64,000 nt of DNA from Kitasatospora kifunensis. Its GTDB lineage: Bacteria > Actinomycetota > Actinomycetes > Streptomycetales > Streptomycetaceae. The notes beneath the pieces are model-generated. The model did no database searches, was not told the origin of the DNA, and worked only from the letters and a program-made list of their open reading frames with translations. Where the stretch lies: assembly GCF_014203855.1 (NCBI RefSeq), contig NZ_JACHJV010000001.1, positions 3,038,001 through 3,102,000 of the forward strand, given 5' to 3'. Within the stretch, counting starts at the first letter, position 1. Every line of letters starts with the position of its first letter. Below, piece after piece: positions 25,676 to 45,357 of this stretch. The position numbers and the translations under genes were made by a program.

Positions 25676-25732
25676 AGTTGTCCAGACCAATCTGGGGCAT
25701 CTCCTGGACAACCCAGATTGGTCTAGTCCACA
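25676..25732. promoter_or_regulatory. Orphan pair of dre-like operators with nested inverted repeats
   Basis: Two DasR-like sites, AGTTGTCCAGACCAAT (25676-25691) and ATTGGTCTAGTCCACA (25717-25732), each 12 of 16 to ACTGGTCTAGACCAGT. They are embedded in a perfect 13-bp inverted repeat (25684-25696 / 25712-25724) and an overlapping 8-bp one, TTGTCCAG (25678-25685) / CTGGACAA (25704-25711). Confidence 0.6.
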
Positions 25733-27357: not shown

Positions 27358-27384
27358 GCAAGCCTCCTGGAACGGTCTGCCGCC

Positions 27385-27425
27385 ATTGGTTCAGACCAGA
27401 TTTCTGGAGCCTGGCCCAGACCAAT
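27385..27425 (-). promoter_or_regulatory. Pair of dre-like sites for the second binding-protein gene
   Basis: ATTGGTTCAGACCAGA (27385-27400) and CCTGGCCCAGACCAAT (27410-27425), each 12 of 16 to the DasR consensus. Start-to-start spacing is 25 bp, identical to the pair upstream of dasA. Confidence 0.7.
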
Positions 27426-27612: not shown

Positions 27613-29187
27613 CTAGGAACGCACCGTCGGCTGGCCGGTGAGCACCTCGACGGCAGCCAGTCCGCAGACCCGGGCGGCGCCGTGGGTGGCGATGTGCAGC
27701 GCGCCGACCGGTGCGGCCTGCGGCACACCCATCTCCACCACCAGGGCGTCCGGACGGGCCGTCAGCAACTGGCGCACCGTCTGCGCCATCCAGGCGTGCC
27801 GGTGCAGGTCGCGCACCACCAGCACCAGGCGGCGCTCCTCGGCCTCGCCCAGTACCCGGGCGACCAGCGCGTCCAGCTGCGGCCCGTCCGCCGCGTCCGC
27901 GGGGCCGGCGCTCAGCGTCCGGGTGCCCGGGAAGCGCTCGGCCAGCATGCCGGCCACGCCCCACGGGGTCTCGTCGCCCACCGCGATGTTGGCCTCGGGC
28001 GAGAACGAGGCGACGTACGGACGGTCGGTCACCGGCGTGAACGGCTGCGCCGGGTCGACGGTCACCAGCAGCGCCCGGCGGGCGGCCCGCAGGCCGATCG
28101 ACAGGTCCGGCTCGGTGGGCGCGGCCTGCGCTGCCCCTCCATAGCGAGCATGTCGCGCCCACGAGCCCAGCGAGCGCACCCGAGCGGCGGCGTCGGCCAG
28201 CCGCTCCTCGGGCAGCCGCCCGGAGCGGACCGCCTCGACGATCGCGTCCCGCAGGCGCAGCACGGTCTCCTCGTCACAGAGCCCGCCGCCCACGCAGATC
28301 GCGTCGGCACCGGCCGCGATCGCCAGCACCGTCCCGTCCGCGATGCCGTAGGTGTTGGCGATCGCGCCCATCTCGATGGCGTCGGTGACGATCAGGCCCT
28401 GGTAGCCGAGCCCGCCGTCCTCGGGACCGCCGCGCAGCAGCCCGCCCAGCACGGCCGGGCTGAGCGTGGCCGGCCACACCGGGTCCACCGCCGGGAGCAT
28501 GATGTGCGCGCTCATCAGGGCCTTGGCGCCGGCCTCGACGGCGGCCCGGAACGGCACCAGGTCGCGCGAGCGCAGCAGGTCCTCGTCCACGCTGATCATC
28601 GGCAGGCCGTGGTGCGAGTCGATGGCCGTGTCGCCGTGGCCGGGGAAGTGCTTGGCGCAGGCGGCGACGCCCGCCGACTGCAGGCCCTCGACCCAGGCGG
28701 CGGTGTGCCGGGCGCACAGCTCGGGGTCGGCGCCGAAGGAGCGCACACCGATGATCGGGTTGCCCGGGTTGGAGTTGACGTCCGCCGAGGGCGCCCAGTT
28801 GTAGTTGATGCCGCAGGCGGCCAGCGCCCGGCCCAGCTCGCGGGCCACGTCGCGGGTCAGCGCCGGGTCGTCGATCTCACCGAGGGCCAGGTTGCCCGGC
28901 CAGGAGGAGCCGGAGCCCACCTCCAGGCGGGTGACGTCGCCGCCCTCCTCGTCGATCGCGATCAGCAGGTCGGGGTTCTCCTGGCGCAGCTGGGCGGTGA
29001 GCGCCGCCAGCTGGGCCTGGTCGGTGACGTTGCGCCCGAAGAGCGCCACCGAGCCGAGGCCGGCCGCCAGGTGGCGGCGGACCCACTCGGGCGGGGTGGT
29101 GGTGCCCTCGAAGCCGGGCTGCAGGACGGTCATCGCGTCGCGGTGCAGCTGGTCGCTGTCCGGGATGCTCGGGATGAGGATGCTCAT
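27613..29187 (-). CDS. dasD: GH3 beta-N-acetylglucosaminidase
   Basis: Family 3 glycoside hydrolase (524 aa) without signal peptide, so cytoplasmic. It should cleave imported chitobiose to GlcNAc. The NagZ-type signature KHFPGHGDTAIDSHHGLP contains the His acid/base loop, and the nucleophile Asp is in LIVTDAIEMGAI. Early motifs LLIAIDEEGGDVTRLE and GINYNWAPSADVNSNPGNPIIGVRSFG are standard. Last gene of the dasABC operon, 9 nt after dasC. In S. coelicolor the equivalent gene, dasD, encodes a major intracellular GlcNAcase. Confidence 0.92.
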   Translation of the reverse strand: MSILIPSIPDSDQLHRDAMTVLQPGFEGTTTPPEWVRRHLAAGLGSVALFGRNVTDQAQLAALTAQLRQENPDLLIAIDEEGGDVTRLEVGSGSSWPGNLALGEIDDPALTRDVARELGRALAACGINYNWAPSADVNSNPGNPIIGVRSFGADPELCARHTAAWVEGLQSAGVAACAKHFPGHGDTAIDSHHGLPMISVDEDLLRSRDLVPFRAAVEAGAKALMSAHIMLPAVDPVWPATLSPAVLGGLLRGGPEDGGLGYQGLIVTDAIEMGAIANTYGIADGTVLAIAAGADAICVGGGLCDEETVLRLRDAIVEAVRSGRLPEERLADAAARVRSLGSWARHARYGGAAQAAPTEPDLSIGLRAARRALLVTVDPAQPFTPVTDRPYVASFSPEANIAVGDETPWGVAGMLAERFPGTRTLSAGPADAADGPQLDALVARVLGEAEERRLVLVVRDLHRHAWMAQTVRQLLTARPDALVVEMGVPQAAPVGALHIATHGAARVCGLAAVEVLTGQPTVRS

Positions 29188-29196
29188 GGCGGCCGA

Positions 29197-30036
29197 TCAA
29201 CCCTTCACTGCGCCGGCGGTCATCCCGCCGACAGCCTTGCGTTGGAGGAACAGGAAAATGATCAGCACCGGGATGGCGAACAAGGTGGAGGCGGCCATGG
29301 TGGCGCCCCAGTCGTCGCCGAAGACGCTCTGGAAGGAGGTCAGCCAGAGCGGCAGGGTCTGCGCGGTGCCGGGACCGGTGGCCTTCTCGAGGACCAGCGC
29401 GAGCGGCAGCTCGTTCCAGGCGGTGATGAAGCCGAACAGCGAGGTCGACATCAGGCCCGGGGCGAGCAGCGGGAAGACCACCTTCACGAAGGCCTGGAAG
29501 CGGGTGCAGCCGTCCACCATCGCCGACTCCTCCAGCTCCTTGGGCACCGCGGCGATGAAGCCGCGCAGCGTCCAGATCGTGAAGGGCAGCACCATCATCA
29601 TGTAGAAGAGGGTCAGCGGAACCAGGCTGTCGAGCATGGACTGGTCGCGGACGATCATGTAGGCCGAGATCGTCATGACCTCCCAGGGCGCCATCTGGGC
29701 CAGCAGGATCACCAGGACGAAGGCCTTGCGGCCGCGGAACCTCATCCGGGCGACGGCGAAGGAGGCGAGGGTGGCGATCACCAGCGAGGCCAGCACCGCG
29801 ACGATCGTCACGGTGAAGCTGTTGCCGACCATCTCCCAGAACTGCGCGGCGCCGGTGGCGGCCTTGAAGTGGTCCAGCGTGCCGCTCAGCGGTACGAAGA
29901 CCGGGGTCTTGCTGATGATGTCCTTGTTCTGCTTGAAGGCCGTACTGAGCATCCAGTAGACCGGGAAGGCGAAGAAGACGAAGAGGACGACCGCGACGAG
30001 GTTCGGCCAGATCCGTCCGATCGATGAGCGCCTCAC
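29197..30036 (-). CDS. dasC: Chitobiose ABC transporter permease DasC
   Basis: MalG-type permease (279 aa), six membrane helices; the coupling EAA loop is EESAMVDGCTRFQAFVKVVFP-like (ELEESAMVDGCTRFQ). It overlaps dasB by 4 bp. It works with DasB as the membrane pore for N,N'-diacetylchitobiose uptake. Confidence 0.92.
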   Translation of the reverse strand: MRRSSIGRIWPNLVAVVLFVFFAFPVYWMLSTAFKQNKDIISKTPVFVPLSGTLDHFKAATGAAQFWEMVGNSFTVTIVAVLASLVIATLASFAVARMRFRGRKAFVLVILLAQMAPWEVMTISAYMIVRDQSMLDSLVPLTLFYMMMVLPFTIWTLRGFIAAVPKELEESAMVDGCTRFQAFVKVVFPLLAPGLMSTSLFGFITAWNELPLALVLEKATGPGTAQTLPLWLTSFQSVFGDDWGATMAASTLFAIPVLIIFLFLQRKAVGGMTAGAVKG

Positions 30037-31034
30037 AGCTCGTCCTCCTGCTTCAGAATGATCCGGAAGTAGTACGCCATCATCACGCCGAGCATCACGA
30101 TGGTCAGCACCGCGATGGTCGCGGCGATGCCGTAGTGCTGGTTGCCGGTGCCCTGGATGTAGGCGTAGAGCGGCAGCGTGGCGGTGAGGCCGCCGGGGCC
30201 GCCCGCGTTGATGGCGAGCACCTGGGTGAAGGCCTTGAAGACCCAGATGACCTCAAGGAACGTGGTGCTGAGGAAGAACGGCTTGAGACTGGGGAAGACC
30301 ACGCACTGGAAGATCTTCCACGAGCCGGCGCCGTCCATCCGGGCCGCCTCGTAGAGCTCGGAGGGGATGGTGGTCAGCCCGGCGTACATGTTGAAGGCCA
30401 CGAACGGGATCGAGCCCCAGACGATCAGCAGGATGATCACGAAGAACGTGCCGGTCTGCGTGCTGTACCAGTTGTAGTCGGCCATGCTGTGCCAACCCAG
30501 CTTGTCCAGCATCCAGTTGACCACGCCGTAGCGGGAGTCGAAGAGCCAGCTGAAGACGGTGGCGCTGGCCACGATCGGCATCGCCCAGGCGAGGATGAGG
30601 CCGGCCTGGAGCAGGATCCGCATCTTCTTGCCGAGGCGGTTGAGCAGCATGCCGACCAGCGTGCCGCCGACCATGATCGCCACCACGTTGATCGCGGTGA
30701 AGACGACCGAACGGCCGGTGGTGTGCCAGAAGTCGGGGTCGGTCAGCTGGTCCTTGTAGTTGTCGAACCCGTTCCACTCGGTCAGGTGCAGGATCAGCTG
30801 ACGCTTGTTCAGGTTCTGGAACGACAACTCGAAGGTCTTGACCAGCGGCCAGCCGAGCAGGGCCAGAGTGGCCACGATGGCGGGCAGGAGCAGCAGATAG
30901 GGGGTGCTGCGCGCCAGCAGGGTCGGACCGACTGGCGGTCTGATCCCACTGACGACAGCATCGGCCGTGGCGCCCCCGGCGCCGCTGCCTGGCTTCGGGG
31001 ATCGAGTGGGCACCCGCTCCGATTGCACAGCCAT
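30033..31034 (-). CDS. dasB: Chitobiose ABC transporter permease DasB
   Basis: MalF-type permease (333 aa) with six to seven helices (YLLLLPAIVATLALLGWPLV first). EAA loop: LYEAARMDGAGSWKIFQCVV. Long disordered N-terminus (~25 residues). It begins 103 bp after dasA, beyond a large stem-loop. Confidence 0.92.
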   Translation of the reverse strand: MAVQSERVPTRSPKPGSGAGGATADAVVSGIRPPVGPTLLARSTPYLLLLPAIVATLALLGWPLVKTFELSFQNLNKRQLILHLTEWNGFDNYKDQLTDPDFWHTTGRSVVFTAINVVAIMVGGTLVGMLLNRLGKKMRILLQAGLILAWAMPIVASATVFSWLFDSRYGVVNWMLDKLGWHSMADYNWYSTQTGTFFVIILLIVWGSIPFVAFNMYAGLTTIPSELYEAARMDGAGSWKIFQCVVFPSLKPFFLSTTFLEVIWVFKAFTQVLAINAGGPGGLTATLPLYAYIQGTGNQHYGIAATIAVLTIVMLGVMMAYYFRIILKQEDEL

Positions 31035-31084
31035 CGTTCTCTCTTCCTCACACCTGGCCCGACAAGTGGCCTACAGACAGGGCG

Positions 31085-31131
31085 GCGGCGCCGCCCACCG
31101 CCTGCGTGGGGCAGGCGGTGGGCGGCGCCGC
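31085..31131 (-). repeat. Perfect 21-bp stem-loop between dasA and dasB
   Basis: Arms 31085-31105 and 31111-31131 with a 5-nt loop, all G/C-rich, 7 nt after the dasA stop. Either a partial terminator or an mRNA 3' stabiliser; it would raise dasA expression relative to dasBCD. Confidence 0.9.
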
Positions 31132-31137
31132 TCGGGA

Positions 31138-32406
31138 CTACTGCTTCTGGCCGAGAAGCTTCGTCATCGTGTCGTCGTACTTCTTGGCGGTGGAGTCGTA
31201 GTCCGCACCCTGCAGGACCGCGGCCAGGAAGTCCTTGATCGGGTTCGGGGTGTTCTCCACGTTGGCCCAGTTCGGCGTGTTGGGGGTGGTGGAGCCGTTG
31301 GCCGAGGCCGGGATGGCCGCCTGCGCGAACGGGGTGGTGGCCAGCGAGTCCAGCGAGGCCTTGTTCGGGATCAGGCCGGCGGTGGCCATCTGGCCCTCGT
31401 ACTTGTCCGACAGCATGATCTTCAGCAGGCCCTTGGCCAGGTCGGGGTTCTTCGTGTCCTGGGCGACGGCCAGGTTCGAGCCACCGAGGAAGACGCCGGA
31501 CGGCTTGTCCGCGGTCTTGCCGGGGAGCGGGAAGTAGCCGATCTGGTCGGCCGGGATGTCCTTGGGGTCCGGGGCCTCCCAGCCCAGGCCGATCATGGCG
31601 CCCACGTCACCCTTGGAGAAGACGGTGGTCTGCTCCGGGGTGGCCTCGTCCTTGTCCTTCGGGGCGGTCGAGTAGCTCTGCAGCTTCTGGTAGGTCGCGA
31701 AGGCGTCCTTGGCCTCCGGCGACTCCAGGTTGCCGACCCAGGTCGAGCCGTTCTGCTTGGCGATCTGGCCGCCCTGGCCGGCGATCAGGCCGAAGTAGGT
31801 GTACCACTCCTGGCCCGGCAGGTAGATCGGCTGGCTGACGCCCTGGGTGGTCTTCAGCTTGTCGAGGTCGGCGTAGAAGTCGTCCAGCGTCTTCGGGGTG
31901 CCGGTGATGCCGGCCTTGGTCCACAGCGCCTTGTTGTAGATGACCACGCGGTTGGTGAAGTACCACGGGGCGGCGTACTGCTTGCCGTCCAGCACCGAGG
32001 AGGCGTTCAGGTTGGCGGCCCAGTCGTTGCCGCCGAGGTCGGCCTTGGCGGAGGTGAGGTCCATCAGGCCGCCGCTCGCGGCGTAGCCGGCCGTCTGGGT
32101 GTTGCCGACCTCCAGCACGTCCACCGAGTTGTCGGACAGACCGGTGGTGACCTTGGCCCCGATGCCGTCCCACTTCTGGATCTGGATGTCGAGCTTGGCA
32201 CCCGGGAACTGCGACTCGAAGTCGGTCTTCACGCCGTCCTGCCAGGCCTGCGAGGCAGAGCCGGACATGAGCCACGCGGTGATGGTCTTGCCGTTGTAGT
32301 TGGCCGGCTTGCCCGCGTTGTCGTCCTTCTTGCTGGACGAGCTACACGCCGCGACGCCGACGACCATTGCCGCGACGCCGACCGCCGCGATGAGCTGACG
32401 CTTCAC
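31138..32406 (-). CDS. dasA: Chitobiose-binding lipoprotein DasA
   Basis: Family 1 binding protein (422 aa). Signal peptide with lipobox MVVGVAAC; NGKTITAWLMSGSASQAWQ at the start of the mature domain, DVLEVGNTQTAGYAASGGL, and PNWANVENTPNPIKDFLAAVL near the end. GTG start with AGGAGG. Two DasR-type sites upstream (32529-32569). DasA binds chitobiose and is needed for normal development in S. coelicolor. Confidence 0.93.
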   Translation of the reverse strand: MKRQLIAAVGVAAMVVGVAACSSSSKKDDNAGKPANYNGKTITAWLMSGSASQAWQDGVKTDFESQFPGAKLDIQIQKWDGIGAKVTTGLSDNSVDVLEVGNTQTAGYAASGGLMDLTSAKADLGGNDWAANLNASSVLDGKQYAAPWYFTNRVVIYNKALWTKAGITGTPKTLDDFYADLDKLKTTQGVSQPIYLPGQEWYTYFGLIAGQGGQIAKQNGSTWVGNLESPEAKDAFATYQKLQSYSTAPKDKDEATPEQTTVFSKGDVGAMIGLGWEAPDPKDIPADQIGYFPLPGKTADKPSGVFLGGSNLAVAQDTKNPDLAKGLLKIMLSDKYEGQMATAGLIPNKASLDSLATTPFAQAAIPASANGSTTPNTPNWANVENTPNPIKDFLAAVLQGADYDSTAKKYDDTMTKLLGQKQ

Positions 32407-32528: not shown

Positions 32529-32569
32529 AGTGGTGTAGACCAGATGCCTGGAGCTTGGCCTAGACCAAT
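32529..32569 (-). promoter_or_regulatory. Two dre sites between dasA and dasR
   Basis: AGTGGTGTAGACCAGA (32529-32544), 14 of 16 to the DasR consensus, and CTTGGCCTAGACCAAT (32554-32569), 12 of 16. A further half-site AGACCAA follows at 32589. They fit DasR repression of dasA and autoregulation of dasR. Confidence 0.85.
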
Positions 32570-32740
32570 GGGTGTGTCAACGGGCCCAAGACCAATCCGG
32601 ACGAGCCGTTACCAAGCCGACACCGCTCATCGTTCATCGCGTGATGCGCTCCCCGTCGCCCAGGCATACGTGCAACGATGTGTGCCGTTAACGAGGAAGT
32701 GAGGGCCAGGAGGGCCTCACGAGGAGCGGAGAAGCGGCCC

Positions 32741-33544
32741 ATGAGCAGCGACGGGGGCACCACGGCCCAGCTTCGGGCGAACCAGCCCCAGGCGGAACCG
32801 TCCGCCCAGGCGCCGGCGGGCGACCCCGCGGCCGCTCGGGTGCCCAAGTACTACGGGCTGAAGCGCCATCTGCTCCAGCTCACCGAGACCCAGCCGGCCG
32901 GCACCCCGGTGCCGCCGGAGCGCGCACTGGCCGCCCAGTTCGACACCTCGCGCACCACCGTCCGCCAGGCCCTGCAGGAACTGGTGGTGGAGGGCCGACT
33001 CGAACGGATCCAGGGCAAGGGCACCTTCGTGGCCAAGCCCAAGGTCGCGCAGGCGCTCCAGCTCACCTCCTATACGGAGGACATGCGCGCCCAGGGCCTG
33101 GAGCCCACCTCCCGCCTGATCGAGGTCGGCTACGTCAGCGCCGACGAGCACCTCGCCCCGCTGCTCGACATCAAGCCCGGCAGCCGGGTGCTGCGGATCG
33201 AGCGCCTGCGACTGGCCAACGGCGACCCGATGGCCATCGAGGTGGCGCACCTGTCCGCCAAGCGCTTCCCCGCGCTGCGCCGCAACCTGGTCAAGCACAA
33301 CTCGCTGTACGCCGCGCTGCGCGAGGTCTACGACGTGGTGGTGGCCGAGGCCGAGGAGACCATCGAGACCACGCTGGCCAACCCGCGCGAGGCCGGGCTG
33401 CTCGGCTCGGACCTCGGGCTGCCGATGCTGCAGCTGTCGCGGCACTCCTTCGACGCGCAGGGGGCGCCGGTGGAGTGGGTGCGGTCGATCTACCGGGGGG
33501 ACCGGTACAAGTTCATCACCCGGCTGCAGCGGCCGGGGCAGTAA
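32741..33544 (+). CDS. dasR: GntR/HutC-family aminosugar regulator DasR
   Basis: Global regulator of GlcNAc metabolism and development (267 aa). N-terminal winged helix ([20 protein letters not shown] ... [16 protein letters not shown]) and a UTRA effector domain ([22 protein letters not shown] ... [15 protein letters not shown]) that binds GlcN-6-P/GlcNAc-6-P. The ATG at 32741 gives a leader similar in size to known DasR; an in-frame ATG at 32678 would add 21 residues. Divergent from dasA with shared dre sites. Confidence 0.95.
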
Positions 33545-35226: not shown

Positions 35227-35769
35227 AATCAGGTACCTCCTGTGGGGAGTCCGGGTGCGATCTACCCAAGACGCTACAGTCGGTGACCGATGCGACACAT
35301 TGAGCGGCGGGATGAGTCCAAGGCCCCCCGTTCGACGGGGAGTCGGGTAAACCCCTGAGGTAGTCCGTTTGCCGACAAACAATCAACCGTGCTCCGCCGC
35401 CCGGGAAGTACGGTCAGCCCGGTCGCAACGGATCGCGCCGCATGGCGAGTTCACCGTACTCGCGAGTCCTTTCCAAGCTGTGATGAACGGGCGGGTTTTC
35501 AGCGGCGCGTAGCCCGACAGTCACCAAATTGGTCTGGACCATGCCGCTCTCGCCCGGTTAGGGTCCTTATTGGATGCAGCGCTGAAGCGCGGCTCCACTC
35601 TCCCAACCTGCCCAACGGCACCCGTCCGTGCTCGATCTCGCGGTGGCGCAGCTCTCCTCGCGTTCATCACACTCCCGCTCCGCGACTGCGGCGCCGGCCC
35701 CTGCCCGAGCACGGCTGCGGAGCGGTGGAGCCGCCCAGCCACAGCACCTTCGAGCCTTGGAGTGATTGC
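35227..35769. other. Divergent intergenic region with dre-like site
   Basis: About 540 bp between the I36 gene and the dioxygenase operon. It contains a short palindrome GTTTG-CCGA-CAAAC (35367-35380) and a dre-like palindrome at 35528-35543. The long ~200-nt leader between the predicted promoter and the first gene holds no supportable frame. Confidence 0.6.
35528..35564 (+). promoter_or_regulatory. dre-like operator and predicted promoter of the dioxygenase operon
   Basis: ATTGGTCTGGACCATG (35528-35543) matches the DasR consensus at 12 of 16, with perfect TGGTC/GACCA arms. It overlaps TGGACC (35535-35540), a possible -35 placed 18 bp before a -10-like TAGGGT (35559-35564), so a bound repressor would block the promoter. 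Confidence 0.6.
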
Positions 35770-36849
35770 ATGCCGACGCCTGACCCCTACCTGCACCGCG
35801 CTCCCACCGCCCGCCCGTACTTCAGCGCCGACACCGAGGCCTACCTGGCGCAGACCCCGCTGCGGGAGATCGAGAAGGCACTCCCGCTGCGCGTGCTGTC
35901 CGAGGAGGACTACGCCTTCTGGCAGACGTACGGGTACGTCGTGGTCAAGGAGGCGATCCCGGCCGAGGCGGCCAAGCAACTGCTGGACTTCGCCTGGGAC
36001 TTCCAGGGGCTCGACCCGACCAAGCCCGAGACCTGGTACGAGGAGCAGAGCTTCCGCTCCGAGCTGGACCAGGAGTTGCACGTCTACGGCTTCGTCGAGG
36101 CGTACCACCACCAGCTGATCTGGGACAGCCGCCAGGCCCAGCGCGTCTACGACGCGTTCGTGGACGTCTGGGACTGCGAGGAACTGTGGGTGACGCTGGA
36201 CCGGCTCAACCTGAACCCGCCCAATGTCAGGACCCGGGACCGCGCGCTGATCGCGCCCACCGACAAGGGCTTTGACATCGAGCTGCACTGGGACGTGGAC
36301 ACCACGCTCGGGGTGCTGCCGCAGCGGGTGCAGGGGATCATCGCGCTGAACGACACTCAGGCGGACCACGGCGGCTTCCAGTGCAACCCGGAGCTGTTCC
36401 GCCGCTTCGAGGAGTGGAAGCTCGCCCAGCCGGCCGACCGGGACCCGATCCGGCCCGACGTCGACCGCAGCGAGTTCCCGGTGGTGCGGCCCGAGTTGAA
36501 GGCCGGCGACCTGCTGATCTGGAACGGACTGCTGGCGCACGGGGTGGCCCGCAACACCTCGGAGCGCGGTGTCCGCTCGGTGCAGTACCTCTCCATGATG
36601 CCCGCGCTGGAGGAGGCCGAGGAGCTGCGCCGCTCCCGGGTCGAGTCCTGGCGGGACCTCTCCACGCCGACCTGGAACAGGACGCTGGTCGGCGACGCGA
36701 AGCGGCACGAGTCGCTGCGCTACGGCACCGCCGAGCTGAACGGGCTCGGCGAGAAGCTGCTGGGGCTCAGGTCCTGGCACGGGATCGCCGCCCAGGCATC
36801 GAACTCCGAGGCATCGAGCGAGGGACGGTCATGCGCCGCATCTGCCTGA
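35770..36849 (+). CDS. Phytanoyl-CoA-dioxygenase-family Fe(II)/2-oxoglutarate oxygenase
   Basis: A 359-aa PhyH-like oxygenase. Iron facial triad: His173 and Asp175 in ELHWDVDTTL, and His257 in LLAHGVARNTSERGVRS, with Arg266 or Arg269 for 2-oxoglutarate. The N-terminal half contains YAFWQTYGYVVVKEAIPAEA, the usual PhyH opening. ATG at 35770 with TTGGAG 8 nt upstream. First of four tightly packed genes; it overlaps the next by 19 bp. Probably hydroxylates a product made by this operon; substrate unknown. Confidence 0.85.
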   Translation: MPTPDPYLHRAPTARPYFSADTEAYLAQTPLREIEKALPLRVLSEEDYAFWQTYGYVVVKEAIPAEAAKQLLDFAWDFQGLDPTKPETWYEEQSFRSELDQELHVYGFVEAYHHQLIWDSRQAQRVYDAFVDVWDCEELWVTLDRLNLNPPNVRTRDRALIAPTDKGFDIELHWDVDTTLGVLPQRVQGIIALNDTQADHGGFQCNPELFRRFEEWKLAQPADRDPIRPDVDRSEFPVVRPELKAGDLLIWNGLLAHGVARNTSERGVRSVQYLSMMPALEEAEELRRSRVESWRDLSTPTWNRTLVGDAKRHESLRYGTAELNGLGEKLLGLRSWHGIAAQASNSEASSEGRSCAASA

Positions 36850-38141
36850 CTCTGCCCACCAACCGGGCCTGCGGCGCGACGATCTCGGCGATCCGTGAGG
36901 AAGCCCGGTACGCGGTGGAGCACTTCGACGTCGAGGTGCACCTGCTGATCCTGGACTCCTGCGACGAGGCCGCCTTCGCCGTGCACGCCAAGGTCGTCGA
37001 GGAGGCGGACGAGATACCTGGCGTGGTCGTGCACCACCTGGACGAGGCGGCGCAGCGGGACTTCCTGCGGCGGGCGATCGATCGCTCCGGCCTCGCCGAG
37101 CCCGAACGGCTGCTCGACCTGATGCTGCCGGACGACGTCTCCTACGGCGCCTGCACCAACCGCGCGTTCCTGATCGCCGGCGCGCTGGGCTGCGCGTCGG
37201 TGCACCGCAGGGACTCGGACAGCGACTACCAAGTCCTGGACGGGGAGCCGGTCTTCCCGATCCACCACGAACTGCTCTCGCTCGGCAAGCGCGCGGCCGA
37301 CGCGGTCGGCGGCGTCACCGAGACCGTGCTGGAGCAGGCGCACCAGCACAAGCCCGTGGTGCTGGTGGGCAGTTCCTTCATCGGCGAGCTCTCGGTGGAC
37401 ATCGGCGAGATCCAGCAGCTGGACCCCGAGGTCTACCACGACGTGGTCAGTCTGTGGGCGCCGGCCCACTGGTCGGCCGAGCAGAAGCGGGAGTTGGTCG
37501 AGGAGTCGTTCCGCGGCGCCGGCACCGATCCGTTTCTCCAGGACCTCTCCACGCTGACGGTCGTCGACCCGATGCGGCTGGACATGTGCAACATCAGCTT
37601 CGCGCAGGTGCAGGAGCTGGTGCCGCTGCCGCCCGCGACCGACACCATCGGCAGCGACTACTTCCTCATGCACCTGGTGCAGGACGCGAAGCTGCCGGGC
37701 GTGCTGCACAACCGCCACATCGTGAACTTCTACACCAACGAACGGCGCACCGACGCCGGCTTCATGGCCTACCAGCTGCGGTTCACCAAGTTCTTCCTGT
37801 CGATGCTCTACTTCAACTTCATCTACGAGCGGATGGCCGCCGCAGGCGTTGCCCTGCTCGACGGGGAAGCGCGCGTGCGCCCGGCCGCGGTGGCCGCGAT
37901 CGTGCGGGAGAGCGCCGGCCTGGACCGGGCGGAGAACCTGCGACGGCTGATCGTCATCGACGGCTCCTACCGCAGACTCGGCGGCCGGTACGCCGAGTTC
38001 GCCGATCTGATCGCGCCCCGCCGCCATCAGCTGCTCGACGAAGCGCAGCTGGACATCGAGAACTTCGCCCTGCTGATCGAAGCATGGGACCCGCTGATGC
38101 GGGCGAGCAAGGCCACGAGCGTCCACCAGCTACCTCGGTAG
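36831..38141 (+). CDS. DUF6271 family protein, GT-A-like
   Basis: A 436-aa protein recognised as DUF6271. The N-terminal part looks like a nucleotide-sugar transferase fold: strand CLTLPTNRA, VHLLILDSCDE, a predicted acceptor loop, and a DxD-like acidic cluster HRRDSDSDYQ after NRAFLIAGALGCASV. A second conserved stretch IGSDYFLMHLVQ and RHIVNFYTNERR follows. No signal peptide. Glycosyltransferase activity is inference. It overlaps the upstream oxygenase gene and is 24 nt from the decarboxylase. Confidence 0.75.
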   Translation: MRRICLTLPTNRACGATISAIREEARYAVEHFDVEVHLLILDSCDEAAFAVHAKVVEEADEIPGVVVHHLDEAAQRDFLRRAIDRSGLAEPERLLDLMLPDDVSYGACTNRAFLIAGALGCASVHRRDSDSDYQVLDGEPVFPIHHELLSLGKRAADAVGGVTETVLEQAHQHKPVVLVGSSFIGELSVDIGEIQQLDPEVYHDVVSLWAPAHWSAEQKRELVEESFRGAGTDPFLQDLSTLTVVDPMRLDMCNISFAQVQELVPLPPATDTIGSDYFLMHLVQDAKLPGVLHNRHIVNFYTNERRTDAGFMAYQLRFTKFFLSMLYFNFIYERMAAAGVALLDGEARVRPAAVAAIVRESAGLDRAENLRRLIVIDGSYRRLGGRYAEFADLIAPRRHQLLDEAQLDIENFALLIEAWDPLMRASKATSVHQLPR

Positions 38142-38165
38142 CCAGAGCCGGACCCGGACCCCACC

Positions 38166-39356
38166 ATGACGCACACCAATGCCAGACTGCGCGCCGCCCT
38201 GGCGGCCGCCACCGAGGACCAGCTGGTCTACGATCTCGCCGGAATCGAGGGACAGTACGCGAGCCTGCAACGGGAGTTGCCCGGCGTGTCGGTCCGATTC
38301 GCCATGAAGGCCTGCCCGGTTGACGAGGTGCTGGCCGCACTGGCGGAGCAGGGCGCCGGCTTCGACGCGGCGAGCCCCAGCGAGATCGAGCAGGCGATCG
38401 CCACCGGCGTGCCGGTCGAGCGGATCCACTACGGCAACACCATCAAGTCCGACCGGAACATCGCGGCTGCCTACCGGCTCGGGATACGGGACTTCGCGAC
38501 CGACAGCCTGCCGGACGTGACGGCGATCGCCGCGCACGCGCCCGGTGCCCGGGTGTTCTGCCGACTGGCCACCAGCGGGGCGGGGGCGCTCTGGGGCCTG
38601 AGCCGGAAGTTCGGCTGCTCGGCCGAGGACGCGGTACTCGTGCTGGAGGCGGCGCGAGCGGCGGGCCTGACGCCCTCGGGGCTGTCCGTCCACGTCGGCT
38701 CGCAGCAGATGACGGCCGAGGCCTGGCGGGACACCTTCGACCAACTCGCGGACGTGCTGGTGGAGCTGGGCCGGCGCGGCCTGCGGCTGAACCACGTCAA
38801 CCTCGGCGGCGGCCTGCCCGCCCTGGGCTACCTCGACCGGCGCGGCCTGCCACTGGACCCGCCGCTGGAGAAGATCTTCACGGCGATCCGCGAGGGCATG
38901 CAGCGCCTGGAGGCGGTGGCAGGGCCGGGGCTGGGCTTCCTGATAGAGCCGGGCCGCTACCTGGTCGCCGACCACGGCGCGATCCGGGCGCACGTCTACC
39001 GGCTGTCCGCGCGCGAGCAACTCAGCGGGGAACGGCAGCACTGGCTCTACCTGAGCTGCGGGAAGTTCAACGGCCTCTACGAGATGGACCAGTTGCAGTA
39101 CCGGCTGGTCTTCCCCTCACACGCGGGCGCCGACACCGAGTACGTGCCCGCCGTGGTCGCCGGACCCACCTGCGACAGCGATGACGCCTACGCCCACGAG
39201 GACAACCTGATGCCGGTGCCCAGGGCCGCCGAATCCGGCGATCCGGTCTGGATACTCTCCTGCGGCGCCTACGCCACCAGCTACATGACCGAGGGCTTCA
39301 ACGGCTTCAGCCCGGTTCCCTACACCCTGATCCCCGGCGAAGGTCCCGACCGATGA
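38166..39356 (+). CDS. Type III PLP-dependent decarboxylase-like enzyme
   Basis: Alanine-racemase-fold amino acid decarboxylase (396 aa), related to ornithine/DAP decarboxylases and BtrK. PLP Lys48 in RFAMKACP, HVGSQ, the phosphate loop LGGGLPA, EPGRYLVADHG, and the substrate motif GPTCDSDD with its catalytic Cys. SCGAYATSYMTEGFNGF near the C-terminus matches the family. It likely decarboxylates a basic or carrier-bound amino acid as one step of the operon's pathway. Four-base overlap with the downstream GNAT gene. Confidence 0.88.
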   Translation: MTHTNARLRAALAAATEDQLVYDLAGIEGQYASLQRELPGVSVRFAMKACPVDEVLAALAEQGAGFDAASPSEIEQAIATGVPVERIHYGNTIKSDRNIAAAYRLGIRDFATDSLPDVTAIAAHAPGARVFCRLATSGAGALWGLSRKFGCSAEDAVLVLEAARAAGLTPSGLSVHVGSQQMTAEAWRDTFDQLADVLVELGRRGLRLNHVNLGGGLPALGYLDRRGLPLDPPLEKIFTAIREGMQRLEAVAGPGLGFLIEPGRYLVADHGAIRAHVYRLSAREQLSGERQHWLYLSCGKFNGLYEMDQLQYRLVFPSHAGADTEYVPAVVAGPTCDSDDAYAHEDNLMPVPRAAESGDPVWILSCGAYATSYMTEGFNGFSPVPYTLIPGEGPDR

Positions 39357-39916
39357 ACCAGGACATCCACATCCGGCCGATCCACGACGGCGACTGGGAC
39401 GCGGTCGTCGCGCTGGAGGCAGCCGCCTACACCGACGGCGAACTGTCGGAGGAACGGGCCGCGTTGGAGTCCCGGGGGCGGGTCTCACCCGGCACCAGCT
39501 TCGTGCTGGAGTACGAACGGCGGGTGGTGGGCTACGTGTTGGCGCTGCCCTACCCGCCTTACCGCTACCCGGACCTGAGCCGGGCGGAGCAGTGCGCCCG
39601 CCCGTCGCGCAACCTGCATCTGCACGACCTGGTGATCGCCGAGCGGCTTCGCGGCAGCGGTCTTGGCACGCGGCTGCTGAGCCACCTCACCGAGACGGCC
39701 ACCGCCGGGGCGTACGAGCGGATCTCGCTGGTCGCCGTCGGCGGCGCCGACACCTTCTGGGCCGCACACGGGTTCACCGCCCACCCCGAGGTCGCACTCC
39801 CACCGAGCTACGGCACGGACGCGCTCTACATGTCCAGAGCGGTGCCCGAGCACCGGAGTGAGGAGTCGAAGCCCATCAACGACCTGTGCCACCGGTCACC
39901 CTCAGTAGCGAAGTAG
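39353..39916 (+). CDS. GNAT-family acetyltransferase of the operon
   Basis: A 187-aa N-acetyltransferase. CoA-binding motif LVIAERLRGSGLGTRLLSHL; later ISLVAVGGADTFWAAHGFTA. The ATGA overlap with the decarboxylase gene indicates coupled translation, so the amine product of the decarboxylase is a likely acceptor (inference). The last 20 residues diverge from the fold. Confidence 0.85.
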   Translation: MNQDIHIRPIHDGDWDAVVALEAAAYTDGELSEERAALESRGRVSPGTSFVLEYERRVVGYVLALPYPPYRYPDLSRAEQCARPSRNLHLHDLVIAERLRGSGLGTRLLSHLTETATAGAYERISLVAVGGADTFWAAHGFTAHPEVALPPSYGTDALYMSRAVPEHRSEESKPINDLCHRSPSVAK

Positions 39917-39926
39917 GCTGATTCAG

Positions 39927-41132
39927 ATGTTCCGCGCCCGCGATCCCTTCCGCCGGTCCCAACTGGCGATCGCCGCCCTGTTCTGCTTTCTCGGGTTCCA
40001 GTACGGCACCTGGGCATCGCGGATTCCCACGATCAAGGCGCACCTGGGCCTGAGCGCGGCGGAGGTGGGCCTGCTGCTGATGGCCACCGGCGTGGGCGCG
40101 GCGGCCTCCTTCCCCCTGGTGGCCCTGCTGATGAAGCGCCTGGGCTCCCGGCGGCTGTCCGTCCTGGCGGCGCTCTGCCTGGGCGTGATCCTGCTCCTGA
40201 TGGCCGAGCTGCCGAACTACCCGGTCGCGCTGCTGGTCATGCTCTGCGACGGCGTCGCCGTCGGGGCCCTGAACGTCGCCATGAACGCCCAAGGGGCGGC
40301 GCTCGAAGTCGAGTTCGAGCGGACCGCGATGGCCAAGCTGCACGCGACCTTCAGCGCGGGATCGCTCTGCGCCGCGCTGCTCGCCTCCGCGATGAACGCC
40401 TTCACCTCGACCCTGCTGGCGCACTTCGCGGTGGCGGCCGTCCTGCTGCTCCTGCTGATCGGCTACGCCCGGGCCGATCTGCTGACGCAGGATCAGCAGC
40501 CTGCCAAGGAAGCGGAGAAGGAGAAGAAGAGCCGCCGCAAGCTGGCCCTGCCCGCACGCCTGACGCTGTGGATGGGCCTGGCGATGGCGTTCGGCACCAT
40601 CACCGAGGGCGCGATGAACGACTGGTCGGCGCTCTACCTGCGGGACGTGGCCAAGGCGGCCTCGGAGCTGGCGCCCATGGGCATCGCCGTCGTCTCGGTG
40701 ATGATGGTGCTGGCCCGGATCTTCGCCGACGGCTGGCGCAACCGGGTGGGCGATGCCCGGATCGTCCGGGTGGGCAGCGCGGTGGCCGGGGTCGGGCTGG
40801 CGCTCTCGCTGCTCGTCGGTGGCGTGGTGCCGGCGCTGATCGGGTTCGCCTGCGTCGGGCTGGGCATCGCGGCCGTCACGCCGTGCGTCTACGTGGCCGC
40901 CGCCCGGCAGGGCTCCGACTCGCTGACTCTGGTCGCCACCATGGGAACCGTGGGGCTGCTGGCCGGGCCGGCGGTGATCGGCTTCGTCGCGAACGCCAGC
41001 GGCCTGGTCTGGGGCATGGGCGCCGTCGCCGGTTCGGCGCTGCTGGTCTCCCTGTGCACCACGCAGATCCGCTGGCCGGCCAGGGCCGAGACGCCCGCCG
41101 AGGTTGTGGCCGAGGCAGCCGCCGCGGCCTGA
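39927..41132 (+). CDS. MFS transporter
   Basis: Twelve-helix major facilitator (401 aa) beginning DPFRRSQLAIAALFCFLGFQ; cytoplasmic loop rich in Lys/Glu (~195-210). Similar to YbjJ/FucP-like MFS proteins: WASRIPTIKAHLGLSAAEVG and EGAMNDWSALYLRD. It follows the four-gene operon by 10 nt but has its own leaderless-type signal, TAGGCT (39914-39919) plus 7 nt. Possible exporter of the operon product; equally a sugar transporter. Confidence 0.88.
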   Translation: MFRARDPFRRSQLAIAALFCFLGFQYGTWASRIPTIKAHLGLSAAEVGLLLMATGVGAAASFPLVALLMKRLGSRRLSVLAALCLGVILLLMAELPNYPVALLVMLCDGVAVGALNVAMNAQGAALEVEFERTAMAKLHATFSAGSLCAALLASAMNAFTSTLLAHFAVAAVLLLLLIGYARADLLTQDQQPAKEAEKEKKSRRKLALPARLTLWMGLAMAFGTITEGAMNDWSALYLRDVAKAASELAPMGIAVVSVMMVLARIFADGWRNRVGDARIVRVGSAVAGVGLALSLLVGGVVPALIGFACVGLGIAAVTPCVYVAAARQGSDSLTLVATMGTVGLLAGPAVIGFVANASGLVWGMGAVAGSALLVSLCTTQIRWPARAETPAEVVAEAAAAA

Positions 41133-41138
41133 CCGATC

Positions 41139-41191
41139 CTGGAAGGCCAGTGTCGGCTGCACCCCCGTGGCAGCCGACACCGGCCTTCCAG
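41139..41191 (+). terminator. Terminator of the MFS gene
   Basis: A 10-bp plus 11-bp stem separated by one mismatch (A49/C81), with a 9-nt loop, just after the stop. Confidence 0.9.
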
Positions 41192-41206
41192 AGCCTGTCC
41201 GGCGCG

Positions 41207-41242
41207 GCTGAGGCCGACCGGCACGTGCCGGTCGGCCTCAGC
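41207..41242 (-). terminator. 36-bp perfect palindrome at the end of the second MFS gene
   Basis: Two 18-bp arms meet with no spacer (41207-41224 / 41225-41242) and include the stop codon of the minus-strand MFS gene. It would fold as a strong hairpin. Confidence 0.85.
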
Positions 41243-42590
41243 CCGCCACCGGCTGCTCGCCGTTGGCCACCGAGGCCAGGGCCTGCTCGATCCGCCGGTT
41301 GCTGGTGAGCGTCAGGCTGACCAGCGCGGTGGCCGCCAGCATCAGCGCGCCCACCAGGAACGGCGCCCGCAGCCCCTCGGAGCGGGCCAGCAGACCACCG
41401 AGCAACCCGCCCAGCGGGGCCGCGCCGACGGACAGCAGCCGCCGGGCCGCGCCGACCCGCCCGGCCAACTCGGCTGGGATCAGGGCCTGTCCGACGGACG
41501 GGCCCAGCACCATGGTGGCCGCCATCGCGGCGCCCAGCAGCGCCAGTGCCAGACCGGCCAGGAACGGGTTGCCGGACAGGCCGAAGCCGAGCAGCGCCGC
41601 CCCTTCGAGCAACGCGGTCGCGGTCAGCGCGCCACCGGTGCCCAGCAGCGCGCCCAGCCGACCGGCCAGGCCTGCACCGAGCAGGCCGCCGACCGCCTGG
41701 CTGGCGAGCAGCAGGCCGAAGCCGAAGTCGCCCAGGTGCAGCAGCTGGTGGGCGAAGAGGACCAGCACCGCGTCCGCGCCGACGAAGGCGAGGTTGCCGA
41801 CCGCCGGGCGCAGCGCCAGGCCGAGCAGCACCTTGTGCCGGACCAGGTAGCCGACCCCGGCCTTGGCCTCGGCCCAGAGCGAGGGGCCGTCCGCGGTCTT
41901 CTCGCGCACCACCGGCGGCTGGGCCGGCGTGCTGCGGATGAGCAGCGAGCTGGCCAGGAAGGAGAGCGCGTCCAGGCCGAACGGCAGCGCGCGACCCAGC
42001 GCGAAGAGCAGGCTGCCGGTCGGCGGACCGGCGAAGTTGGCGAAGACCGTGTTGGCGCCCTGCTGGCGGGCGTTGGCCTTCTGCAGCAGCGTCAGGTCCC
42101 GTCCCAGCAGCTGCGGCAGGAAGGCCATCCCGGCGGTGTCGAACAGGATCTGGCCGATGCCGAGCAGGAAGGCCACCGCTATCAGCAGCGGAATGCTCGC
42201 CAGGTGCAGCGCGGCGGCCCCGAACGGGACGGCGAGCAACACGGCCCGGCCCAGGTCGGTCAGCCACATGGTGCGCCGGCGGTCCCAGCGGTCCACCAGG
42301 GCGCCGCCGAGCAGGCCGAAGCAGAACCAGGGCAGCAGCGCGGCCGAGGTCACCAGGCCCAGCTCGACCGGGTCGTGGGTCATCGTGGCGGCCAGCAACG
42401 GCAGGGCGGCGAAGTAGACGCCGTCGCCGAGCGAGGAGACGGCGGAGGCGGCCCACATGCGATGGAAGGCGGCCGGCAGTTTCGGCGCGGCGGGCCCGCT
42501 CACGGCGGCCTGGCTCTCGGCAGGCCGACTCGAAGAGCCGTCGGTGCTCGAAGCGCCGTCGGTGTCCGGTCTCGGCTCGGTGATGCTCAC
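41238..42590 (-). CDS. MFS exporter (MDR type)
   Basis: A 450-aa MFS_3/enterobactin-exporter-like protein with 10-12 helices. Hallmarks: WAASAVSSLGDGVYFAALPL, the loop GGALVDRWDRRRTMWLTDLG and IPAELAGRVGAARRLLSVGA. A long Ser/Ala-rich N-terminus precedes helix 1. GTG start overlaps the stop of the upstream regulator gene (GTGA), so the pair is one operon: a regulator-controlled efflux system. Confidence 0.9.
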   Translation of the reverse strand: MSITEPRPDTDGASSTDGSSSRPAESQAAVSGPAAPKLPAAFHRMWAASAVSSLGDGVYFAALPLLAATMTHDPVELGLVTSAALLPWFCFGLLGGALVDRWDRRRTMWLTDLGRAVLLAVPFGAAALHLASIPLLIAVAFLLGIGQILFDTAGMAFLPQLLGRDLTLLQKANARQQGANTVFANFAGPPTGSLLFALGRALPFGLDALSFLASSLLIRSTPAQPPVVREKTADGPSLWAEAKAGVGYLVRHKVLLGLALRPAVGNLAFVGADAVLVLFAHQLLHLGDFGFGLLLASQAVGGLLGAGLAGRLGALLGTGGALTATALLEGAALLGFGLSGNPFLAGLALALLGAAMAATMVLGPSVGQALIPAELAGRVGAARRLLSVGAAPLGGLLGGLLARSEGLRAPFLVGALMLAATALVSLTLTSNRRIEQALASVANGEQPVAG

Positions 42591-43447: not shown

Positions 43448-43729
43448 ATGTCCACCGAAACTGACGCTCCGCCAGCGCCCCCGGGGCCGCTGCCGGTCGT
43501 CACCCCCGCCCGCGTCCTGGCCGGGGTCAGCCTGGCCGTGCCGGTCGTCGCGCTGCTGTGGGTCTCCTCCTACGCATCGCTGACACCCAGGCTCGGCGGA
43601 GTGCCGTTCTTCTACTGGTACCAGATCGTCTGGATCCCGGTCTCGGCCCTCTTCACCACCGCCGCCTACCTGTTGTTGAACCACGACGCGCGCCGGCGCA
43701 AGGCCCTGCGGGGAGGTGCGGCGCGATGA
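43448..43729 (+). CDS. DUF3311 small membrane subunit
   Basis: A 93-aa protein with two helices (VLAGVSLAVPVVALLWVSSY and FFYWYQIVWIPVSALFTTAA). DUF3311 proteins accompany solute:sodium symporters. Translation is coupled to the next gene by a 4-bp ATGA overlap. Confidence 0.88.
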   Translation: MSTETDAPPAPPGPLPVVTPARVLAGVSLAVPVVALLWVSSYASLTPRLGGVPFFYWYQIVWIPVSALFTTAAYLLLNHDARRRKALRGGAAR

Positions 43730-45357
43730 ACCACGGCGTCAACACCGTTGCCCTGCTGGTGTTCGTGCTCTTCTTCCTGCTGGTCACCGTGATGGGCTTC
43801 CTGGCCTCGCGCTGGCGGCGGGCGGGCAGCGCGCAGCACCTGGACGAGTGGGGCCTGGGCGGCCGCAGCTTCGGGACCTGGATCACCTGGTTCCTGCTCG
43901 GCGGCGACCTCTACACCGCGTACACCTTCATCGCGGTGCCGGCCGCGGTCTACGGCGCGGGCGCGGCGGGCTTCTTCGCGGTGCCGTACACGATCATCGC
44001 CTACCCGCTGGTCTTCCTCTTCCTGCCCCGGCTCTGGTCGGTGGCCCGGGTGCACGGCTACGTCACCCCCGCCGACTTCGTGCGCGGCCGCTACGGCTCG
44101 CGGGCGCTGTCGCTGGCCGTCGCGCTGACCGGGATCCTGGCCACCATGCCGTACATCGCGCTGCAGCTGGTCGGCATCCAGGCGGTGCTCGACACCCTCG
44201 GGGTGGGCGGCGGGGCGAACGCCAACTGGTTCGTCAAGGACCTGCCGCTCTTCATCGCCTTCGCGGTGCTGGCCGCCTACACCTACTCCTCCGGGCTGCG
44301 CGCGCCCGCGCTGATCGCCTTCGTCAAGGACACCCTGGTCTACATCGTGATCATCGTCGCGGTGATCTACCTGCCGATGCGGCTGGGCGGCTACGGCCAC
44401 ATCTTCGACGAGGCCGCGAAGAAGATGAGCACCGTCAATCCCGCCACCAAGCAGCCGGTCGGCGCGATGGTCAGCGGACCGAAGGCGCAGTGGGCCTACG
44501 CGACGCTGGCGCTCGGCTCCGCGCTGGCGCTGTTCATGTACCCGCACACCGTCACCGGCGTGCTGGCCGCCAAGTCGCGCAACACGGTGCGCCGCAACAT
44601 GGCGATCCTGCCCGCGTACTCGCTGATGCTCGGGCTGCTGGCGCTGCTCGGCTTCCTGGCCATCGCGGCCGGGGTGGGCAAGGGCGTCAAGGGCTACAAC
44701 CCGCAGCTGGCGGTGCCGCAGCTGTTCGCCGGCCTGTTCCCCGACTGGTTCACCGGGGTCGCCTTCGCGGCGATCGGGATCGGGGCGCTGGTGCCGGCCG
44801 CGATCATGTCGATCGCGGCGGCCAACCTGTTCACCCGCAACATCTACAAGGAGTTCCTGCGCCCCGAGGCCACCCCGGCGCAGGAGACCAAGGTGGCCAA
44901 GCTGGTCTCGCTGCTGGTCAAGGTCGGCGCGCTGGTCTTCGTGCTCGGCATGGACAAGCAGCTGGCGATCAACCTGCAGCTGCTGGGCGGCATCTGGATC
45001 CTGCAGACCTTCGTCTCGGTGGTCAGCGGGCTCTTCACCCGCTGGTTCCACCGCTGGGCACTGCTGGCCGGCTGGCTGGTCGGCATGGTCTACGGCACCT
45101 GGAAGGCGTACGGGATCGCCTCCCCCGCCACCAAGCACTTCGGCGGCAGCAACGCGGCGATCCCCGGGATCGGCGAGATCGGCTACATCGGGCTGACCGC
45201 GTTCGTGCTCAACCTGCTGGTCGCGGTGGTGCTCACGCTGGTGTTCCGGGCCACCAAGACCCCCAACGGCGTGGACGAGACCTCCCCGGCGGACTACAGC
45301 GCGGAGGAGGGCGACCCCGAGCTTGCCGGTGCGCCCCTGGCAGTGGCAGCGCATTAA
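43726..45357 (+). CDS. mctP: Sodium:solute symporter (MctP-like monocarboxylate permease)
   Basis: SSS-family permease (543 aa) with about 13 helices. Family signs: LDEWGLGGRSFGTWITWFLL, the VHGYVTPADFVRGRYGSRAL loop and AFAAIGIGALVPAAIMSIAAA. With its DUF3311 partner it resembles MctP/MctC-type importers of short monocarboxylates (pyruvate, acetate, propionate) (family inference). Confidence 0.87.
   Translation: MNHGVNTVALLVFVLFFLLVTVMGFLASRWRRAGSAQHLDEWGLGGRSFGTWITWFLLGGDLYTAYTFIAVPAAVYGAGAAGFFAVPYTIIAYPLVFLFLPRLWSVARVHGYVTPADFVRGRYGSRALSLAVALTGILATMPYIALQLVGIQAVLDTLGVGGGANANWFVKDLPLFIAFAVLAAYTYSSGLRAPALIAFVKDTLVYIVIIVAVIYLPMRLGGYGHIFDEAAKKMSTVNPATKQPVGAMVSGPKAQWAYATLALGSALALFMYPHTVTGVLAAKSRNTVRRNMAILPAYSLMLGLLALLGFLAIAAGVGKGVKGYNPQLAVPQLFAGLFPDWFTGVAFAAIGIGALVPAAIMSIAAANLFTRNIYKEFLRPEATPAQETKVAKLVSLLVKVGALVFVLGMDKQLAINLQLLGGIWILQTFVSVVSGLFTRWFHRWALLAGWLVGMVYGTWKAYGIASPATKHFGGSNAAIPGIGEIGYIGLTAFVLNLLVAVVLTLVFRATKTPNGVDETSPADYSAEEGDPELAGAPLAVAAH

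Follow-up and report, generated by a model that had tools for sequence, protein, structure and literature searches.

A DUF6271 operon behind a candidate DasR site

The DNA considered here, which we call the window, is a stretch of 64,000 nucleotides from the 9.57-Mb genome of Kitasatospora kifunensis (contig NZ_JACHJV010000001.1, positions 3,038,001 to 3,102,000), and positions in it are counted from its first letter. Its plus strand carries an operon of five genes built around a member of the protein family DUF6271, and ahead of the first gene, which encodes a PhyH-family oxygenase, lies a candidate DasR-responsive element (dre). DasR ties chitin and cell-wall sugars to antibiotic production. 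The features of the operon and its upstream region are as follows.

35528-35543, no strand assigned: candidate dre ATTGGTCTGGACCATG, position weight matrix score 20.0
35559-35564, plus strand: TAGGGT, possible -10 box in the conserved block CCCGGTTAGGGT, 18 bp after TGGACC (35535-35540, inside the dre)
35770-36849, plus strand: PhyH-family Fe(II)/2-oxoglutarate oxygenase (Pfam PF05721, 43.6 bits)
36831-38141, plus strand: DUF6271 protein with a predicted GT75-like GT-A fold, probable glycosyltransferase (PF19787, 779 bits)
38166-39356, plus strand: type III pyridoxal phosphate (PLP) decarboxylase (PF02784, Orn_Arg_deC_N, 148 bits)
39353-39916, plus strand: GNAT N-acetyltransferase (PF00583, Acetyltransf_1, 48.2 bits)
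39927-41132, plus strand: MFS transporter, the final gene of the operon (PF07690, MFS_1, 85.7 bits)

Open reading frames and Pfam matches bear out the layout described in an earlier sequence-only reading of this stretch, four packed genes with an MFS gene 10 nt on: PhyH and DUF6271 overlap by 19 bp, a 24-bp gap separates DUF6271 from the decarboxylase, decarboxylase and GNAT overlap by 4 bp, and the MFS gene follows after a 10-bp gap. The palindrome with TGGTC and GACCA arms that the same reading had placed 2 kb from dasR is likewise present (arms at 35530-35534 and 35537-35541), lies at -242 from the PhyH ATG and scores 20.0 as a dre. The matrix was built from the 40 Streptomyces coelicolor sites in Table 1 of PMC4398421, which themselves score 16.4-24.6, a range that includes the window site. 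The element ATTGGTCTGGACCATG matches attggtctggaccaaa, the chiB site of S. coelicolor listed in that table as DasR-bound, at 14 of 16 bases. It is the fourth-best site in the window, behind those at 25717, 32529 and 25676, and a Markov background predicts 0.06 sites per 64 kb at scores of at least 15.

The sequence AATTGGTCTGGACCA is identical in the window and in three Kitasatospora-group relatives (L035, a contig of Kitasatospora sp. GAS204B, L079 and L082), and in all four it is followed by the identical block CCCGGTTAGGGT, while much of the leader has diverged; a further locus, L089, has the variant TTGGTCTAGTCCA. Since TGGACC lies inside the dre and 18 bp from TAGGGT, DasR would cover the -35 region if the two hexamers are the -35 and -10 boxes of a promoter, which is a possible reading of the conserved block. 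In the stretch 35300-41300 a strict sigma-70 scan gave no promoter.

Conservation of the operon

The sequence-only reading would have been refuted by the lack of a conserved gene neighbourhood, and such a neighbourhood is clearly present. The five genes occur together in 27 of 29 related loci (L060 and L061 lack PhyH, and L060 is the only one of the 29 without a downstream MFS gene) and in all 40 loci taken from the head of the list of PF19787 matches, with MFS inverted in L081; among 20 loci lower in that list the five genes are found in 3 and not in 17. The second set, L066-L125, consists of 60 hand-picked places among the listed matches, namely 40 of the top 42 (the window's own genome and one match at a contig edge were left out) and 20 lower ones taken to sample other contexts, so that the share of each architecture in it is no frequency. 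The sets also overlap, as several of L066-L125 are the same contigs as L035-L063 and at least five of the 40 loci repeat the first set. Genes in the relatives were called with a simple codon-usage caller. Across the family, PF19787 is found in 131 of 297 genomes.

Removing DUF6271 sequences at least 95% identical reduced 91 loci to 84 non-redundant ones. PhyH, decarboxylase and GNAT are all present in 64 of these; 7 have PhyH alone of the three, 11 GNAT alone, and 2 decarboxylase with GNAT. On a maximum-likelihood tree, operon type and linkage to das genes change several times. The window clade and L119 adjoin dasR, the L047 clade lies downstream of dasD, and many other loci adjoin a glycoside hydrolase family 3 (GH3) paralogue that is 51-56% identical to the dasD of the window; the tree label 'das' also covers L072, whose neighbour is 39% DasR-like and probably another GntR protein, and L100 (62%). 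In Streptomyces philanthi (L057, 10101-14376), a beewolf symbiont, the DUF6271 and MFS matches each fall into two pieces in different frames, which suggests decay of the operon.

Candidate dre sites across DUF6271 loci

Sites scoring at least 14 were counted in the 1000 bp ahead of PhyH or, in loci that lack it, ahead of DUF6271, and the Apilactobacillus locus L065 was excluded from the counts. By this measure 73 of the 84 non-redundant loci have a candidate dre in the 1 kb preceding the operon, as against 7 of 84 for a control stretch 1.5-2.5 kb upstream, and 40 column-permuted matrices gave a site in 0.7 loci on average and in 6 at most. Six further loci have a dre before the next gene upstream: in L036, L039, L048 and L077 it precedes a helix-turn-helix gene (the domain was checked in L077), and in L040 and L097 a GH3 gene. 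The total comes to 79 of 84, in agreement with the DasR control proposed earlier for the window operon. With the limit tightened to 500 bp, a dre is found in 53 of 71 PhyH loci and in 62 of 735 other upstream regions, among them those of neighbours that share the same dre. More than 6 kb from the operons there are 39 dre sites in 682 kb, a number that includes das and other known-type dre.

The site recurs beside different neighbours and in different operon types. A dre within 1 kb accompanies the operon in 25 of 25 loci with a divergent GH3 gene, in 10 of 12 with a co-directional upstream GH3 gene and in the one locus where dasR is the upstream neighbour. It is also found in 22 of 26 type A loci (PhyH-DUF6271-decarboxylase) whose upstream gene is neither GH3 nor dasR, in 6 of 7 PhyH-DUF6271 loci that have no decarboxylase and, by difference, in 9 of 13 loci without PhyH. 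This persistence through different neighbours is hard to explain unless the site serves the operon genes. In its match to the published sites, its upstream position and its conservation in relatives the window site resembles that of a class I target of the DasR regulon. The regulatory result is the strongest of the analysis, and regulation of the family by DasR is well supported in silico.

Predicted fold and activity of DUF6271

An AlphaFold2 model of DUF6271 computed from 29 sequences has high confidence (predicted local distance difference test, pLDDT, 92.1; predicted TM-score 0.92). The nearest solved fold is that of MtdL (7xps; Z 23.8, root-mean-square deviation 3.3, 311 aligned residues, 12% identity), followed by the GT75-type rice uridine diphosphate (UDP)-arabinopyranose mutase UAM2 (Z 20.8) and mannosyl-3-phosphoglycerate synthase (Z 17.2). 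At E <= 0.001 the window protein matches only the DUF6271 family in Pfam, and RGP (PF03214) gives no match to it.

Two alignments were used to compare active-site residues, one of 29 mostly type A rows (A1, from 28 of the 29 loci; L057, with its interrupted DUF6271 frame, was left out) and one of 22 diverse rows (A2). In MtdL, Mn2+ is held by Asp111 and His287 and the diphosphate is bound by Arg289; the self-glycosylated Arg159 is the proposed nucleophile, and Asp260 the proposed base (PMC9937993). The DUF6271 residues D130 (of HRRDSD in most rows), D276 and H293 are kept in 22 of 22 A2 rows, and R295 in at least 90% of them, being unaligned in Apilactobacillus. Between positions 131 and 292 no arginine is invariant or 90% conserved in A2, whereas R249 is invariant in the narrower A1. 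Residues were matched to MtdL by eye; an hhalign comparison of DUF6271 with one actinobacterial RGP protein gave nothing significant, aligning only 42 columns with a probability of 0.3%. RGP genes are rare in the phylum (1 of 198 genomes, and 1 of 3 in another sample), too few for a profile. Since no conserved arginine lies at 131-292, an equivalent of the GT75 nucleophile Arg159 seems, on this mapping by eye, to be absent, and its apparent absence favours a transferase with an external acceptor over a mutase. We read DUF6271 as a probable metal-dependent glycosyltransferase of predicted GT-A fold.

Oxygenase and decarboxylase

The PhyH alignment (A3, 22 type A rows) leaves out 8 of the 29 loci: L060 and L061, which have no PhyH, L046, L051 and L057, which have no clean frame, and L042, L054 and L062, which were dropped. 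The iron triad H173, D175 and H257 is invariant, all 22 rows match Pfam PhyH and the mean column identity is 81%; among all PhyH family members, duplicates included, H[WFY]D is found in 78 of 78. The C-terminal part matches the Gig2-like family PF07350 at E <= 0.01 in 22 of 22 rows, and the window protein scores 25.6 bits, below the Pfam cut-off of 27. Searched against the PDB, the PhyH profile found nothing below E 0.2, and the Gig2 structure 6akz came up only at E 0.97.

The nearest solved relatives of the decarboxylase are Lys/Orn decarboxylases, with 2plj matching at E 5.4e-40 (141 bits over 363 residues). The active-site Cys-Asp motif reads GPTCDS in 68 of 72 family members and fits GP.C[DE] in all 72; GPTCDS is identical in 2plj, the Vibrio vulnificus enzyme, and is replaced by GPSCDG in 5gjm, from Selenomonas. 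Scores fall below the NCBIfam equivalog cut-offs, and the substrate may be modified.

DUF6271 in other architectures

In five loci (L064, L109, L112, L113 and L117) the PhyH-DUF6271 pair is accompanied by families that correspond in L109 to tRNA-synthetase-like and condensation proteins, as well as, by inspection, a small carrier-like protein and an MFS gene. The locus on a Streptomyces clavuligerus plasmid (L064, 11797-21650) has PhyH-DUF6271, the carrier-like and tRNA-synthetase-like families, a condensation protein and MFS, with a dre of score 22.2 ahead and two transketolase parts after the locus. A single frame of 996 residues in L113 (9998-12988) fuses DUF6271 (562 bits) to a condensation domain (70.5 bits). 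In L106 the PhyH-DUF6271 pair lies next to domains of the AMP-binding, carrier and condensation types, and the L120 locus combines an AMP-binding enzyme with a carrier protein, an ATP-grasp-like protein, a further PLP decarboxylase, a further glycosyltransferase and a GH3 gene. A third group has DUF6271-GNAT without PhyH (domains read in one representative each), partly beside a SARP-type (BTAD) regulator, a phosphopantetheinyl transferase, carrier proteins, a KASIII-type enzyme and a UDPGT-like glycosyltransferase. A partner that could acylate an amine, either GNAT or a condensation domain with a carrier protein, recurs across architectures, which suggests that a common PhyH/DUF6271 intermediate carries an amine.

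A distant DUF6271 (19% identity, PF19787 96.6 bits) is encoded on six plasmid records of the honeybee lactobacillus Apilactobacillus kunkeei. In the one record that was read (L065, 8912-19310) it adjoins genes for a tRNA-synthetase-like protein, a carrier protein, ATP-grasp enzymes, an aminotransferase and a methyltransferase; two further neighbouring genes carry annotations as transketolase subunits. The transketolase and aminotransferase genes, set against the anisomycin genes, raised the idea of an anisomycin-type pathway; it was dropped when a literature search gave nothing useful. The Apilactobacillus paper PMC9648514 makes no mention of transketolase.

The das locus and other features of the window

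The das genes lie ahead of the operon; two of them are listed here.

32678-33544, plus strand: dasR, GntR/HutC regulator (PF00392, GntR; PF07702, UTRA), start possibly at 32741; presumed repressor of the operon
27613-29187, minus strand: dasD-type GH3 enzyme (PF00933; family f5), a related paralogue of which adjoins the operon in many other genomes

The regulator gene is assigned as dasR because of its GntR and UTRA domains and its das-gene context: the minus-strand genes beside it (27613-32406) encode a solute-binding protein, two ABC permeases and the GH3 enzyme, and the gap between dasA and dasR contains dre sites at 32529 and 32554. A dasABCD operon with an intracellular glucosaminidase has been described (PMC12370203). 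A second solute-binding protein gene adjoining the das genes (26056-27400, minus strand) has a dre of its own at 27385 (score 19.7). Two strong sites (scores 21.4 and 23.4; 25676-25732) lie upstream of a PdtaS-type histidine kinase gene (24024-25541, minus strand); the core TGGTCTAGTCCA in this segment is identical to that published for the region of the small RNA scr5239 of S. coelicolor, so that the small RNA may be conserved in the window. Beyond the operon, a small membrane protein and a sodium:solute symporter are encoded at 43448-45357 (families f14 and f15), a pair that occurs near the operon or das genes in seven of the sampled loci, one contig being represented twice among them.

Discussion

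A candidate DasR site ahead of the operon suggests that it probably makes a small compound when the chitin sugar N-acetylglucosamine (GlcNAc) is available. We favour, with reasonable though limited confidence, the view that the window operon belongs to a family of DasR-repressed, GlcNAc-inducible biosynthetic operons organised around DUF6271. We infer that DasR would bind the dre over the promoter and block transcription, and that an amino-sugar phosphate (glucosamine-6-phosphate), on building up, would release DasR and allow expression of the genes. In the sequence of steps that we propose, PhyH would hydroxylate a basic amino acid or a derivative, DUF6271 would add a sugar, with UDP-GlcNAc the most attractive donor, the PLP decarboxylase would take off the carboxyl group, GNAT would acetylate the amine and the MFS protein would export the product, perhaps for use in competition on chitin or lysed mycelium. 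The predicted product would be a hydroxylated, glycosylated, N-acetylated amine. The sequence-only reading had suggested a decarboxylated, acetylated and hydroxylated amine, perhaps glycosylated; this fits the enzyme set and the GT-A-type fold, and remains an expectation from them.

Several observations weigh against this interpretation. Five of the 84 loci (L060, L061, L106, L110 and L115) have no upstream dre, and the 84 are not a count of independent events because the loci are related. The range of scores used for comparison comes from the very sites on which the matrix was trained. The genome contains the exact core TGGTCTRGACCA at 10 distinct positions and the reversed pattern gives 3 hits per strand, so that the core by itself is only mildly rarer than chance allows. 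To these may be added the negative promoter scan and the GH3 gene, which in 25 of 71 PhyH loci is divergent, so that the dre might belong to it, and in 12 more precedes the operon on the same strand. On the enzyme side, no solved structure matches the DUF6271 sequence significantly (the best, at E 0.017, is a designed protein), and its activity is therefore read from the predicted fold; the PhyH model is not usable (pLDDT 32.6), and the choice of UDP-GlcNAc as donor comes solely from the regulatory context.

Ownership of the dre by the neighbours, whether das genes or the divergent GH3 gene, would make the operon a passenger. The intergenic dre shared with all 25 divergent GH3 genes, the sites at 10 of the 12 loci with GH3 upstream on the same strand and the proximity of dasR in the window are all compatible with such an arrangement. 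It is nevertheless very improbable, given the sites in 22 of 26 type A loci with other neighbours, in 6 of 7 PhyH-DUF6271 loci without decarboxylase and in most DUF6271-GNAT loci; in the window itself the product of the divergent gene is I36 inhibitor-like, and the conserved TAGGGT is oriented towards the operon. The operon might instead have a housekeeping function, detoxifying or salvaging GlcNAc-derived intermediates or making a compatible solute. PF19787 is widespread (131 of 297 genomes), PhyH is unusually conserved at 81% mean column identity, and its Gig2-like match in 22 of 22 rows recalls Candida GIG2, described by title as a GlcNAc-inducible gene of GlcNAc metabolism; a GlcNAc-6-phosphate toxicity pathway acting via NagS is reported in Streptomycetaceae (PMC12680351). 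We nonetheless consider this unlikely, since the distribution is patchy, with 166 of the 297 genomes giving no match, since the sister architectures with condensation, carrier, AMP-binding, phosphopantetheinyl transferase, KASIII-type and SARP-type genes are typical of specialised metabolism, and since the Gig2-like score of the window protein lies under the cut-off.

A separate question is whether DUF6271 is itself a sugar-nucleotide mutase or nucleoside diphosphate (NDP)-sugar modifier like MtdL and Hyg20, supplying a furanose donor for a product assembled elsewhere. Its closest folds are MtdL and UAM2, well above mannosyl-3-phosphoglycerate synthase, H293-x-R295 resembles His287-x-Arg289 of MtdL, R249 is a possible group-specific catalytic arginine, and bacterial GT75 enzymes are known in antibiotic pathways (PMC9937993). 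The apparent loss of Arg159 speaks against a mutase, as do the missing RGP match and the type A operon, which contains no second glycosyltransferase to use a furanose donor; such an activity is in our estimation doubtful. With DUF6271 taken as a glycosyltransferase, a broader and tentative proposal, on which we would place little weight at present, is that the family is the hallmark of an unrecognised GlcNAc-gated class of natural products. A GT75-like enzyme that has lost the self-glycosylating arginine would transfer GlcNAc, the sugar sensed by DasR, to a hydroxylated amine; N-acylation would be accomplished by GNAT or by carrier-protein and condensation chemistry, a dedicated GH3 glucosaminidase would trim or activate the conjugate, and the module would occur in several architectures and, distantly, on Apilactobacillus plasmids.

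An important consequence of finding a textbook dre in most sampled loci of an uncharacterised family, and in several gene contexts, is that it offers a GlcNAc-inducible pathway, open to direct test, for what may be a new class of compounds together with a likely inducing culture condition. It also draws attention to DUF6271 as an enzyme family of predicted GT75-like fold for which no activity is known. A literature search that was without most subscription journals, and so is weak evidence of absence, gave nothing on DUF6271, the operon family or its dre; the result agrees with the earlier description of the operon as undescribed.

DasR control of antibiotic clusters is already known, and the act, red, cpk and cda genes of S. 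coelicolor are likewise biosynthetic genes under this GlcNAc-responsive repressor (PMC4398421). The sites given for them in Table 1 of that paper are mostly low-scoring (7.15-12.44) or absent from it, whereas the window operon has a canonical dre in its upstream region that is conserved across genera. Among enzymes, the best fold match of DUF6271 is MtdL, which with Hyg20 represents the GT75 NDP-pyranose mutases of the A201A and hygromycin pathways (PMC9937993). By eye the two appear to share the DXD-type Asp, the HxR motif and a candidate base Asp; they differ in that identity is 12%, equivalents of Arg159 and Arg257 are apparently absent from DUF6271, and RGP does not match it. Mannosyl- and glucosyl-3-phosphoglycerate synthases, which are retaining GT-A enzymes that glycosylate a small hydroxylated acceptor, align less well (Z 17.2 and about 14; 8-15% identity). 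The decarboxylase is most similar to the Lys/Orn decarboxylases 2plj and 5gjm, its nearest solved but distant relatives whose equivalog cut-offs it does not reach, and the C-terminal part of PhyH resembles the Gig2-like (DUF1479) proteins such as Candida GIG2 (6akz), at a score under the family cut-off in the window. The window operon would be a case of DasR-controlled specialised metabolism that has an uncharacterised enzyme family at its core.

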